Shown here: positions 48,314-56,578 of the stretch, one piece after another | Numbering within the stretch: position 1 is the first letter of the stretch | Layout of the letters: each line of letters starts with the position of its first letter | Notes under the pieces: generated by a model | Told to the model about the DNA's origin: nothing | Databases searched by the model: none | What the model saw: only the letters and a program-made list of their open reading frames with translations | NCBI RefSeq assembly: GCF_000353285.1 | Contig: NZ_KB731324.1 | Location: 1,630,577 to 1,694,576, forward strand | Direction of reading: 5' to 3' | From: Leptolyngbya boryana PCC 6306 | Lineage (GTDB): Bacteria; Cyanobacteriota; Cyanobacteriia; Leptolyngbyales; Leptolyngbyaceae | Length of the DNA stretch: 64,000 nt | Made by a program: the position numbers and the translations under genes

Positions 48314-48396
48314 TCAATTTCCTCGGTTGCGTGACCATACTGGAAAAGGCAATTTAGTTTTGCCTCCTATTGTTCAGTGACTTAGGCGTTTCCCGT

Positions 48397-49425
48397 GTGA
48401 ATGACCTAGACTTGGAGCGACCCACCATCTTGGTAGTAGACGATCATCCTTCGAGCCGGATGACCGCTGTAGCTTTGCTTTCTGTAGAAGGCTACGATGT
48501 CATTGAAGCAGAAAGCGGCGCGACTGCACTTGCACAACTTCAGCAAACGAATCCTGACCTGATTTTGCTCGATGTGATGATGCCAGGCATGGATGGGTAT
48601 GAAGTGTGCCGTCGCCTCAAAGAAGATGAACTCACTCGTTTGACGCCAGTCGTCTTTATTACAGCATTAGACGATCGCCGATCGCGGCTCCGCGGCATCG
48701 AAGCCGGGGGCGACGACTTCTTGACCAAACCCTTTGATCAATTAGAACTCTCGGCACGAGTCAAATCGCTCGTGCATCAGAAACGCCTGAATGAAGATTT
48801 AGATCACGCGGAAAAAGTGTTGTTCTCAATTGCGAGAACCGTTGAAAGTCGCGATCCAAATACTGGAGATCACTGTGAAAGACTGGTGATGCTGGGAAAA
48901 GCATTCGGTGAATTTTTGGGATTAACGCGATCGCAAATTCGCGACTTGATGTGGGGTGGATATTTGCACGATATCGGCAAAGTAGGCATCCCCGATGCTG
49001 TGCTGCTGAAAACAGGACGACTCACTCCTGAAGAGTTTCAGATTATGAAACAGCATGTCCTGATCGGCGAAAAAATCTGTCAACCGCTGCGAACCATGCG
49101 CGGCGTTGTCCCGATCATCCGGCATCATCATGAACGTTGGGATGGGTCTGGCTATCCAGATGCCTTGAAAGGCGATGACATTCCTTTTTTGGCACAAGTG
49201 TTTCAAATCCTTGATATTTATGATGCACTGACCAGCGAACGCCCCTATAAAAAAGCATTTTCACCTGAAGAAGCGTTGAGAATCATTGCAGAAGAAACAA
49301 GAAAAGGCTGGCGTAATCCAGATTTGATTGCAGAATTCAGCGATTTTATTCAAGCGATCGAACTGCAATTCAAGAGTGAACCGATTTGGTTTGAAAAATA
49401 TGTCAAAGCAGTGAATCGTATCTGA
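48397..49425 (+). CDS. Response regulator with HD-GYP phosphodiesterase domain
   Basis: A receiver domain (TILVVDDHPSS, phospho-acceptor Asp in LLDVMMPGMDGYE, switch Lys in LTKPFDQ) is joined to an HD-GYP domain (HCERLVMLGKAFG, GYLHDIGKVGIPD, HHHERWDGSGYPD). Such proteins degrade cyclic di-GMP when phosphorylated. The partner kinase is not next to it. Start is uncertain: GTG at 48397 (about 342 residues) or TTG at 48370. Confidence 0.88.
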   Translation: MNDLDLERPTILVVDDHPSSRMTAVALLSVEGYDVIEAESGATALAQLQQTNPDLILLDVMMPGMDGYEVCRRLKEDELTRLTPVVFITALDDRRSRLRGIEAGGDDFLTKPFDQLELSARVKSLVHQKRLNEDLDHAEKVLFSIARTVESRDPNTGDHCERLVMLGKAFGEFLGLTRSQIRDLMWGGYLHDIGKVGIPDAVLLKTGRLTPEEFQIMKQHVLIGEKICQPLRTMRGVVPIIRHHHERWDGSGYPDALKGDDIPFLAQVFQILDIYDALTSERPYKKAFSPEEALRIIAEETRKGWRNPDLIAEFSDFIQAIELQFKSEPIWFEKYVKAVNRI

Positions 49426-51839: not shown

Positions 51840-54389
51840 ATGATATTCAGTTCCGAATCTTTTTCTCGGTGGAAGTTTGAGCCAATTTCAGCGAATCCTG
51901 GTTCGATCTTGCCTCCGATTCTGCCAAGAACGTTAACCTCGTTTGAAACTTTGGGATTCAGTTTAGGGGGAGTGCTGCTTTGGTTAGGAACTGCGCCAGC
52001 GATGCATGGAGCGCTTGGGATACAAGCTCTCTCAGTCTGGATCATCAGTACAATTGCAGGAGTGATGTTAAATCTGCAAGTGCGGCATCTGGGGCAAATC
52101 TATCCTGATGTTTCAGGTGGAACGCCGAACTATACGACTCGATTATTAAAGGCGTATCCAGCGATCGCTCAATATAGCGCGATCGGTTACTGGCTTGGAT
52201 GGGTTTCCATTCCTCCGATGAATGCGATGATTTTGACGGATTTGATTCAGACAAATCTCGATCCCATCTCAATTCACATCCCAACGACTTTCTTCAGAGT
52301 TCTCTTTACGTTACTGCCCTACATCCTTGCGTTCAGCGGAACGAGAGCTTTGAGTATCCTGCACTCGTTTTTTGTGCTGCCTGCGATCGGACTGATCATT
52401 GCTTTTTGTGTGTTTGGATTCAGTTGGCTAACCTTCTTCGCGCACAACTCAACGATCGTGCCGATGCAAAGTGCAAGCTTTTCGCTGGAAGGTTGGATGA
52501 AATGGTATTTCATGGCAGTGTATGCCGTCTATGGGGCTGAAACGGGATCTTCATTTGTCGCAGATAGTCAGCGGCCTCGATCGACCTTGAATTTTATTGC
52601 AGGTGCTGCTGTTTTATTACCGCTTGTCTACATCGCTGGCTCTTGGATTATCAATCGTCTCAGTCCTACTGATGCCACCTCGACCTTTCTGGTTTTAGTG
52701 AATTCGGCGCAACCTTTTTGGGGAGATGCTGCTCCATTGCTGGTGACGATGTTAATTGCAAGTGGCGCTTTGCTGAGTTCTGCAACGGCTGTTTCTAATA
52801 CGTCTCGAATTCTCTATCAGTTGGCACGCGATCGCTATATTGCTCCAGTTTTTGGGGTCGTTTCGCAGCGAGGAGTATTTGCACCTGCACTGTCTCTAAC
52901 TCTGCTGTTTAGCTTGATATGCCTGGTCTGGGGAAATGTTGATCGAATCATCATGATCACAGGCACGGGCTATCTGATTGCGATGATCGCGTTCCATCTG
53001 GGAATGTGGCATCAGCGTAAGAGTCCAGAGTCTCTTTGGGCAAAAGCATCGCTCTTTTTCTTGTGCATTGAAGTCACGGCACTGATTGTCGGTGGAATGG
53101 CTTGGAGTTGGCAAGATTTACTTCTCGGGCTGTCGCTTCCTTTCATCGTTCGATTGCTCAGTTGGGGAATGCAGCAAGTTAAGTTTGCTCCATTTCAGTC
53201 TGAATGGTGGTTTCGGCTCTATCAACCCAAATTGCTTTCGGAACAAACAGATTTCCTCTCAACTCAGGTGATTTCGCTCCTGGTCATCATTGCTATGACG
53301 ACGAGTATTAGCTGGTGGGTGAGATCAACATTAGATAATGTAGCAGCAAGCATTCAGTCTTCTCTGCTGATTTTGGTACTACTCGTGGTGGCATTCTTGG
53401 GAGTTGCGATCGCCTGTTGGAGTAGCTTACCGCAGGTTTTAGCCATTGATGAAGCAAGAGAAATGTCCGAGAAAACTCAGGCAGAACTTTCGATCAAAAC
53501 TGAGAAGTTAGAATCGACTCTGCAAGATTTACAAAATGCTCAGTTACATATGGTGCAGAGCGAAAAGATGTCTGCACTGGGTCAAATGGTGGCAGGAGTA
53601 GCGCATGAGATCAACAATCCCGTGAATTTCATTCACGGTAATCTCTCCTATGTCAAAACTTCTACGCAAGACTTGCTCACTTTGGTTGAAACTTATCAGC
53701 AGACTTTTCCGAATCCCCCTGCTGTGATTCAGGATCAGCTAGATGAGATTGATCTGCCGTTTCTGACTGAAGATCTGACAAAGCTTTTGCAATCGATGCA
53801 AGTTGGGACGAACCGGATTCGGGAAATTGTTTTGTCGCTTCGCAACTTCTCCCGATTAGATGAAGCTGAATACAAAGCAGTCGATGTGCATGAAGGGATT
53901 GAGAATACGCTGCTGATTTTACGCCATCGGTTACAAGCTACGACAAAGCATCCAGCGATTCAAATTACTAGGGAATACGGTGATTTGCCACTGGTTGAAT
54001 GCTACGCAGGGCAACTCAATCAGGTCGTCATGAATCTGTTGAGTAATGCGATCGATGCGTTAGAAGAGGTGAATCACGATCGAACCTATGAGGAGATTGA
54101 GAAGAATCCGAGTACGATTCGCATCCGGACGGAGGTGACTGAGAAAAACTTCGTCAAAATTATGATTGCGGACAATGGGCAAGGCGTTCCAGAAAGTGTA
54201 CGGTCTTCTTTGTTTAATCCGTTTTTTACGACGAAACCTGTTGGAAAAGGAACCGGGTTAGGACTTTCAATTAGCTATCAAATCATTGCGGAGCGGCACA
54301 GAGGTAGGCTTTACTATGATTCAACGTTTGGAACGGGGACACAGTTTGTGATCGAAATTCCAGTGTTGCAACCTGATGTCTTGACATAA
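51840..54389 (+). CDS. Amino acid permease (APC) - histidine kinase fusion
   Basis: An 849-residue protein with two parts. Residues about 30-535 are an APC-superfamily transporter with about 12-14 helices, including the family-typical GFSLGGVLLWLGTAPAMHG and MAVYAVYGAETGSSFVADS. After a linker with coiled coil (residues 550-580) comes a histidine kinase: H-box VAGVAHEINNPVNF with phospho-His about residue 589, N-box NQVVMNLLSNAIDAL (about 735), ADNGQGVP (about 777), FNPFFTTK (about 793) and GTGLGLSIS (about 804). No PAS or receiver domain. This suggests a sensor that reads an amino acid or its transport. A cognate regulator is not adjacent. The layout recalls CbrA, where the transporter is of another family. 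Confidence 0.9.
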   Translation: MIFSSESFSRWKFEPISANPGSILPPILPRTLTSFETLGFSLGGVLLWLGTAPAMHGALGIQALSVWIISTIAGVMLNLQVRHLGQIYPDVSGGTPNYTTRLLKAYPAIAQYSAIGYWLGWVSIPPMNAMILTDLIQTNLDPISIHIPTTFFRVLFTLLPYILAFSGTRALSILHSFFVLPAIGLIIAFCVFGFSWLTFFAHNSTIVPMQSASFSLEGWMKWYFMAVYAVYGAETGSSFVADSQRPRSTLNFIAGAAVLLPLVYIAGSWIINRLSPTDATSTFLVLVNSAQPFWGDAAPLLVTMLIASGALLSSATAVSNTSRILYQLARDRYIAPVFGVVSQRGVFAPALSLTLLFSLICLVWGNVDRIIMITGTGYLIAMIAFHLGMWHQRKSPESLWAKASLFFLCIEVTALIVGGMAWSWQDLLLGLSLPFIVRLLSWGMQQVKFAPFQSEWWFRLYQPKLLSEQTDFLSTQVISLLVIIAMTTSISWWVRSTLDNVAASIQSSLLILVLLVVAFLGVAIACWSSLPQVLAIDEAREMSEKTQAELSIKTEKLESTLQDLQNAQLHMVQSEKMSALGQMVAGVAHEINNPVNFIHGNLSYVKTSTQDLLTLVETYQQTFPNPPAVIQDQLDEIDLPFLTEDLTKLLQSMQVGTNRIREIVLSLRNFSRLDEAEYKAVDVHEGIENTLLILRHRLQATTKHPAIQITREYGDLPLVECYAGQLNQVVMNLLSNAIDALEEVNHDRTYEEIEKNPSTIRIRTEVTEKNFVKIMIADNGQGVPESVRSSLFNPFFTTKPVGKGTGLGLSISYQIIAERHRGRLYYDSTFGTGTQFVIEIPVLQPDVLT

Positions 54390-55738: not shown

Positions 55739-56578
55739 GGTAGTGTTCTAGATATGTGGATATATGGCAGAATGAAAACGATGTGTTAGAGGGCTGAGTC
55801 GAGATGGTCCTAGAACCTGTTCAATGTCCCGATTGCCAGAGTGTGGATGTCGTTAAGCATGGTCGCAGTGCTGCTGGAAAACAACGGTATTGTTGCCGTA
55901 ACTTAGAGTGTTCGAGACGATCATTTATCTTGAACTTTAGCTATCGAGGACGACTGCCTGAAGTCAAAGCGCAAATCAGCGACATGGCAATCAACGGCAG
56001 TGGTATTCGTGATACCGCCAGAGTGTTGAAGATTAGCCCAACGACTGTGATTGAAACGCTGAAAAAAAGTCAAGTCAACTTGAACAAGTAAACATAAGTC
56101 TGCTCGAACAGCACCAACCGGATAACACGGCAGTCATGGTCGTCAGAGTCGAGGCGGCGGAGATGGACGAGATGTGGAGTTTTGTCGAGTCAAAGCAGCA
56201 TCAACGATGGTTGTGGCACGCGATTGACCATCAAACTGGAAAAGTCCTTGCCTATGTGCTAGCCACCCATGAAGACTCAGCTCTTAAGCAACTTCAGCAA
56301 CTGTTAGCTCCTTTTTCGATTCAACGGTTTTACACCGATAGTTGGGGAGCTTACTTGCGATTGCTAGATGAGCAGCACCATACGGTTGGCAAAGCCAACA
56401 CACAGCGCATTGAGCGGAAACATCTAACTTTGAGAACTCGGATCAAGCGGCTTGCCAGAAAGACGATCTGTTTTTCCAAGACTGAGAAGATGCATGATAC
56501 TGTGATTGGATTATTCATCAATCGTCATGAGTTCGGGCGAGCAGTATAACGTTATGCCCACACATCTAGAACACTACC
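55739..56578. mobile_element. Complete IS1-family insertion sequence (840 bp)
   Basis: Ends are 21-bp inverted repeats: GGTAGTGTTCTAGATATGTGG at the left (first 20 bases shown here without the last) and its match at the right with a single difference at the sixteenth base. Both sides carry the 8-bp duplication CTCCAAAC, normal for IS1 (8-9 bp). The element encodes InsA (55804-56091) and InsB (56136-56549) in the -1 frame. Both frames are intact, so it may be active or recent. Confidence 0.93.
55804..56549 (+). CDS. insAB: IS1-family transposase InsA/InsB, -1 frameshift
   Basis: InsA (55804-56091, 95 residues) has a zinc-ribbon CPDCQS...CCRNLEC and a helix-turn-helix (GSGIRDTARVLKISPTTV). InsB (56136-56549) has the DDE site: Asp in EMDEMWSFVES, Asp in RFYTDSWGAYL and Glu in RIERKHLTLRTR. 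At 56062-56068 is an A7 run where a -1 slip joins the frames without a stop, giving ...LKKSSQLEQ... into InsB, as in IS1. The given span covers the fused product. InsB alone starting at 56136 is also possible. Confidence 0.9.

Follow-up and report, generated by a model that had tools for sequence, protein, structure and literature searches.

The window, by which we mean the whole 64,000-nucleotide stretch of Leptolyngbya boryana PCC 6306 analysed here, holds on its forward strand a reading frame that starts with ATG, runs for 849 amino acids without internal stops (51840-54389) and joins a permease-like module to a histidine kinase; the first-pass annotation had read it as a single uninterrupted fusion of an APC protein with a HisKA/HATPase module, and open reading frame analysis and Pfam confirmed this. 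The features at the locus are the following.

48370-49425, + strand (that of the kinase gene): response regulator with an HD-GYP-like output, assigned by eye, 2.4 kb upstream of the kinase gene
51840-54389, + strand: APC-fold sensor histidine kinase gene, 849 codons plus stop (open reading frame, Pfam)
51921-53177, + strand: APC-fold core, about residues 28-446, helices 1-12 (Pfam, AlphaFold, PDB fold matches, Foldseek)
51939-52016, + strand: TM1, residues 34-59, predicted to be unbroken, with W48 at 51981-51983 (alignment, AlphaFold)
53178-53474, + strand: extension, residues 447-545, with a short helix, two more TM helices and the conserved junction AFxGVAIACW(T/S)SLPQ..AI.EAR
53355-53561, + strand: coupling shaft, residues 506-574, the last TM helix predicted to run on toward HisKA, its length differing among relatives in heptad steps
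53562-53852, + strand: HisKA/DHp dimerisation and phospho-acceptor domain (Pfam, motifs, model), with H589 at 53604-53606
54012-54365, + strand: HATPase_c catalytic domain, residues 725-842 (Pfam, motifs)

Two Pfam permease families match the first part of the protein, AA_permease_2 (PF13520) over residues 35-404 (E = 1.6e-12, 47.5 bits) and AA_permease (PF00324) over residues 44-383 (E = 2.3e-11, 43.5 bits), followed by HisKA from residue 580 (E = 1e-8) and HATPase_c over residues 725-842 (E = 4.7e-22), all over their cut-offs. The kinase half carries H589 within AHEINNP, an N-box at 727-739, DNGQGVP at 778 and GKGTGLGLS at 802; with a HisKA domain that holds the phospho-acceptor histidine and a HATPase_c domain that holds its motifs, the protein is, judged on domains and motifs, a predicted HisKA-type sensor histidine kinase. 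PF13520 matches six places in the genome, of which the window gene is the sole one in a frame longer than 509 amino acids. The same 7.26 Mb genome has at least 137 HisKA matches, from 150 of 178 candidates scored, and the module would supply the input for some of the many kinases that such genomes encode.

Immediately upstream is a ribosomal protein S6-like gene; downstream, on the opposite strand, lies a methyltransferase-like gene. Neither neighbour (both assigned by eye) gives a hint of a ligand. No receiver gene adjoins the window gene on its strand; the nearest receiver-type gene on that strand is the HD-GYP-like regulator at 48370-49425, a possible but speculative partner of the kinase. 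Farther along the window, two consecutive frames at 55804-56549 resemble the halves of a transposase of the IS1 type.

A recurrent module with exchangeable outputs

Two samples were searched with the permease part alone (residues 31-537), one of 58 relatives and one of 386 genomes from across the phylum, the window genome being counted in both. Full-length modules turned up in 23 and 35 genomes, respectively; in the larger sample 37 had matched, two of them by fragments only. Together the samples gave 67 full-length modules in 51 genomes, that is, 66 besides the window's in 50 other genomes, 38-56% identical to the window module; because a limited number of candidates was scored per genome, copy numbers are lower bounds, and a fourth copy in one genome (G149), absent from both surveys, was found by sequence fetch and profile search. 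Partial matches of 41-182 residues (G024:C350 among the relatives; G084:C55, G216:C3, G428, G343 and G323:C49 in the phylum sample) were dropped before counting, and the partial copy in G084 is broken by stops. Five further modules, left out of the 67, lie in four of nine genomes reached via named contigs, namely Calothrix sp. PCC 7716, Leptolyngbya sp. PCC 6406, an Oscillatoriophycideae MAG with two copies and an uncultured cyanobacterium, in frames of 826-969 amino acids. The fusion family is therefore real, conserved and wider than first thought, and to call it uncommon in a cyanobacterium, as the first-pass annotation had, is too strong.

A profile of the family separated members sharply from other proteins. 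Applied to 117 genomes from the phylum, a set that shares many genomes with the surveys, it returned 18 members, all scoring at least 734 bits and encoded in frames of 843 amino acids or longer, and a broken copy in two pieces (179 and 63 bits); the next matches scored 37, 31 and 27 bits, two in stand-alone frames of APC length and one in a 96-amino-acid frame. A search of 198 genomes from the phylum to which a deltaproteobacterial MAG belongs gave no members; two stand-alone matches there scored 38 and 29 bits. A scan of 72,556 plasmid records gave one partial match, on a Rhodococcus plasmid (22.7% identity, E = 1e-3), and a single scan of genome contigs gave nine matches, all to the kinase half from residue 477 on. 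Within the window's genus the module occurs in three of eight genomes, the window's included, and the other two copies are just 46-47% identical to it. The window copy sits on one of the four long end branches of the module tree (1.01) and may therefore be specialised or relaxing.

All 66 fetched homologues run on in frame beyond the module, and since these come from other assemblies and cross the same junction, the window fusion is neither chance nor an assembly join at the linker; its spread over many genomes likewise rules out a one-off event. By motif, the 61 HisKA and six GGDEF-EAL members are separate proteins, so that every one of the 67 full-length modules is followed by an in-frame signalling output. 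Pfam found HisKA in 61 of the 67 C-terminal parts, HATPase_c in 58, GGDEF and EAL in six, Response_reg in nine, PAS (PF00989) in 44 and GAF (PF01590) in three; the HisKA members without a HATPase_c match are three, in all likelihood L073, L078 and L094, the frames of which break off at a contig end or close to one. Six relatives, not the window gene, are by their GGDEF and EAL domains predicted second-messenger enzymes. About 45 of the 67 have a PAS domain between module and output; PAS is absent from 21 kinases and from one GGDEF-EAL member. No stand-alone full-length copy of the module was found among the sampled genomes.

On a quick tree built from the module only, the six architectures require 10 changes where the least possible is five; PAS versus direct coupling changes six times and output class at least five times, so the module has switched partners on more than one occasion. 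It is a swappable input domain, not the product of a single fusion event, and the recurrence of the same transporter-shaped piece on several signalling enzymes suggests a module turned sensor.

A predicted APC fold with an altered first helix

AlphaFold, run on the 67-row alignment, predicted an APC fold plus two extra helices (pLDDT 89.5, pTM 0.89). Compared with PDB structures over residues 26-462, a range beyond which most of the extension lies, the model matched y+LAT1 (Z = 35.4), LAT1 (34.7), AdiC (34.5), KimA (34.5) and then NKCC1 (32.7), and a Foldseek search also returned APC-fold proteins. KimA is a K+ transporter; because the top four matches, tied within one Z unit, include both amino acid transporters and KimA, the fold gives no choice of ligand. 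At the sequence level, a profile search of PDB sequences found LysP alone (E = 1.1e-5), in an alignment that begins after TM1, and phmmer with the permease part alone returned nothing from the PDB but coat-protein matches at E = 0.2-0.3. Among the 67 modules, 50 match PF00324 and 13 match PF13520 at E <= 0.001. With a Pfam permease match over cut-off and an APC fold, the window protein belongs to the APC superfamily, and the family aligned with stand-alone APC proteins at a probability of 98.2 (seven stand-alone frames were extracted and six aligned, L139 being left out because its extracted sequence lacked the start).

Bacterial APC transporters have 12 TM helices and a G-x-G in TM1, and their TM1 and TM6 breaks are substrate-holding sites. 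The G-x-G occurs in two of the 67 family rows versus five of the six stand-alone proteins; its second glycine aligns to W48, present in 65 rows, and many rows read GTAP instead of GSG. G50, T51 and A52, found in 42, 26 and 45 of the 67 rows, could be a decayed remnant of the motif if the register has shifted. In the model neither TM1 nor TM6 shows a break, so the window module is predicted to lack the TM1 G-x-G with a TM1 break that characterises a functional APC transporter. The description of the module as a full APC transporter thus holds for the fold, which is complete and has two helices beyond the usual twelve, but not for the usual TM1 motif. Other positions are strongly conserved: Y231 (63/67) and E234 (62/67) in TM6, R323 and Q327 (67/67 each) at the end of helix 282-330, and D331 just past it (67/67).

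Since the breaks that hold substrate are not seen in the model, we infer a loss or change of transport, and the module is probably a receptor that transports little or nothing. The earlier suggestion that the protein senses by transport is accordingly unsupported, and binding without transport is the likelier mode, given the scarcity of the G-x-G and the unbroken TM1.

Coupling of the module to its output

APC proteins have their N-terminus on the cytoplasmic side; if the same holds here, the two TM helices after the usual twelve place the C-terminus in the cytoplasm. In a full-length model (pLDDT 80.9) the last TM helix is continuous over residues 506-574 and the HisKA helix spans 580-622; confidence in the shaft is moderate (pLDDT about 46-64 over residues 501-580), and the model is of a monomer.

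We used W527, invariant across the 67-row alignment, as the reference point for linker length. In 18 directly coupled AHEINNP proteins the phospho-acceptor histidine lies 48, 55 or 62 residues after W527 (seven, nine and two proteins, respectively), the window protein having the 62-residue spacing to H589, and in three SHELRTP proteins it lies 57, 57 and 64 residues after. PAS, whose start was set with a small custom profile, begins 20 residues after W527 in 43 of 45 PAS members; the exceptions are L128 (21 residues), which we read as an edge effect of the profile, and L082 (41 residues), whose linker has extra AREQAE heptads. The length steps 48-55, 55-62, 57-64 and 20-41 are all multiples of seven, for which the probability by chance is about 1 in 2,400 if the steps are independent; the rule was spotted after seeing the data. 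The distance to the histidine in PAS-containing members follows no heptad rule. Heptad steps are as expected for a coiled-coil shaft, and they support a continuous coiled coil that would relay the signal, presumably between paired helices of a dimer, to kinase or PAS. The coupling side of the model is well supported for a prediction; on the ligand side, an amino acid or derived amine is no more than our best guess.

Transporter-fused kinases of other types offer precedents. CbrA, which the first-pass annotation had offered as an analogue, is an SLC5-STAC histidine kinase whose transporter part is described as LeuT-type in the available text of PMC13022988, and CrbS is, according to abstracts, another. 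Like the window protein, both carry an N-terminal transporter-type domain fused to a histidine kinase; in contrast, theirs is an SLC5 domain with a STAC four-helix bundle in between, whereas the window family is of the AA_permease type and its last TM helix reaches HisKA or PAS; in direct fusions the phospho-acceptor histidine comes 48-64 residues after W527. No SSF (SLC5) domain was found in the window protein (Pfam E <= 1) or the 67 modules (E <= 0.001), and a STAC-type linker in the window protein is ruled out by the 62-residue W527-H589 spacing and the continuous helix 506-574; the analogy is apt for the way of working, but there is neither an SLC5 domain nor room for STAC. A further precedent is the ammonium sensor kinase Ks-Amt5, a transporter-fused kinase for which the available text of PMC5764959 reports loss of transport: here too a transporter is repurposed as a sensor and coupled directly, without HAMP, PAS or STAC, although Ks-Amt5 has a trimeric Amt fold and the window family an APC fold, with no Pfam match to an ammonium transporter domain in the window protein or the 67 modules. 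Ssy1 of yeast and the Bacillus spore receptor GerAB, presented in the parts of PMC12958826 and PMC8617281 available as APC-type receptors that signal via other subunits, are likewise APC-superfamily proteins serving as amino acid receptors, but they act through separate partner proteins, whereas the window family is covalently fused to a kinase or cyclase. LysP, AdiC and ApcT share the fold, LysP with its weak sequence match, and differ in having 12 TM helices, the TM1 G-x-G and no signalling domain.

Genomic context and the likely input

The unlinked regulator proposed earlier is plausible for the window gene, which has no adjacent same-strand receiver, but at 10 of 64 homologue loci, some of them cut by contig ends, the gene directly downstream is codirectional and starts with a receiver-like domain (eight REC-kinase-like and two single-receiver-like, judged by eye from sequence, not Pfam). 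At five of the 64 (L085, L088, L097, L121 and L131, at two places on the module tree) the kinase gene is preceded on its strand, at a distance of 13-257 bases, by a one-module NRPS gene. Pfam, run on four of the five (all but L085), found AMP-binding, carrier and thioester-reductase-type domains; L121 has a methyltransferase as well, and in L097 the gene is split over several frames. At six of the 64, namely all the GGDEF-EAL members (L112, L114, L115, L117, L120 and L122, a single clade), the opposite strand carries a decarboxylase gene at a distance of 81-1003 bases; that of L112 scores 541 bits against the NCBIfam histidine decarboxylase model (cut-off 305), and the other five are assigned by similarity. 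These genes are a further hint at the ligand, weakened by their orientation and by their restriction to one clade.

Viewed from the NRPS side, matches occurred in 47 of 386 genomes, and eight further loci (L186-L192 among them) were fetched from the higher-scoring ones: seven one-module genes of about 1,000 amino acids and one longer gene. The next codirectional gene at all seven one-module loci has kinase motifs; Pfam confirmed three of these kinases, with a sensor resembling dCache_1 that is over cut-off in one, and no kinase adjoins the longer gene or two other long ones. The recurring set is thus a one-module A-T-reductase NRPS followed by a codirectional kinase with a Cache-like or APC sensor, several with an adjacent REC-kinase, and it possibly represents an amino-acid-derived signal with its own sensor. 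As both kinds of kinase sit downstream of a one-module NRPS, the APC kinases fill the slot held elsewhere by Cache-type kinases, and this sharing is the main reason, a slight one, for preferring an amino-acid-like ligand. A candidate amino acid motif was looked for and not found in the Cache-type kinases beside NRPS genes, which are therefore not used as ligand evidence in that way.

The reading that we favour, with a probability of roughly 0.6, is a membrane receptor kinase with a relative of APC-fold transporters, turned sensor, as its input domain; a ligand-driven helix shift would be passed into HisKA. The ligand, a small molecule that is most likely an amino acid or else an amine or aldehyde derived from one, would bind in the core of the module and shift it between transporter-like conformations; this would move the last TM helix and the coiled coil that it would form on its way into HisKA, and the movement would alter H589 autophosphorylation and phosphotransfer to a separate response regulator.

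A true transceptor, with a module that still transports and a kinase driven by the transport cycle and not just by binding (the mechanism proposed for CbrA), is an unlikely alternative: the complete APC fold and the conserved TM6 and 323-331 residues would suit it, as would the histidine binding and uptake reported for the SLC5 part of CbrA in the available text of PMC13022988, but the near-absence of the G-x-G, the predicted unbroken TM1 and TM6, and the fact that every full-length copy found carries an output domain argue against it. Somewhat less credible is an APC fold that responds to an ion (K+ or a different one), to pH or to stress in the bilayer. KimA level with the amino acid transporters and NKCC1 next in the fold comparison, the excess of PF00324 over PF13520 matches and the GTAP of TM1 would all fit such a sensor, but the sole sequence-level structural match is LysP, and the NRPS and decarboxylase genes found nearby have to do with amino acids. 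That the module merely anchors the kinase in the membrane, with the real input being cytosolic (PAS or partner proteins), finds some favour in the many PAS-containing members but is very improbable, as the module is the only within-protein input candidate in the PAS-less kinases and the PAS-less GGDEF-EAL protein, and heptad-stepped coupling and a mean column identity of 55% would be odd for a passive anchor.

Beyond the receptor kinase that we favour lies a broader and speculative proposal, which we consider doubtful: a cyanobacterial receptor class whose APC transporter ancestor lost its transport role and came to serve both kinases and c-di-GMP enzymes as a general plug-in sensor, and which, in one operon type, reads an amino-acid-derived signal from the co-encoded A-T-reductase NRPS. 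If this were true, the NRPS-linked operon type would be, in effect, self-made chemical communication.

Transporter-fused kinases of the SLC5-STAC and Amt types are already known; among the open-licence literature matches listed, we found no description of an APC-type family on kinases or cyclases. In its passage on fused transporters, as available, a review of sensor kinases names Ks-Amt5 (PMC8534201); a review of c-di-GMP sensing never mentions permease or symporter (PMC8846402), and a survey of two-component systems in thermophilic cyanobacteria never mentions permease or transporter (PMC9953108). The available text of a 2024 paper describes earlier membrane transceptors as few and eukaryotic and adds a widespread prokaryotic S-component/5TMR fold (PMC11109136). 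The present family would be a further bacterial case: the sample contains at least 67 proteins that combine a single transporter fold with a kinase or c-di-GMP enzyme in one chain. The family's natural heptad linker variants and output swaps make the step from transporter-like conformational change to signal testable by chimeras.

One genome (G149) has three tandem APC-kinase genes (L113), followed by a single-receiver gene and REC-kinase-like genes, with its fourth copy (L118) located elsewhere.
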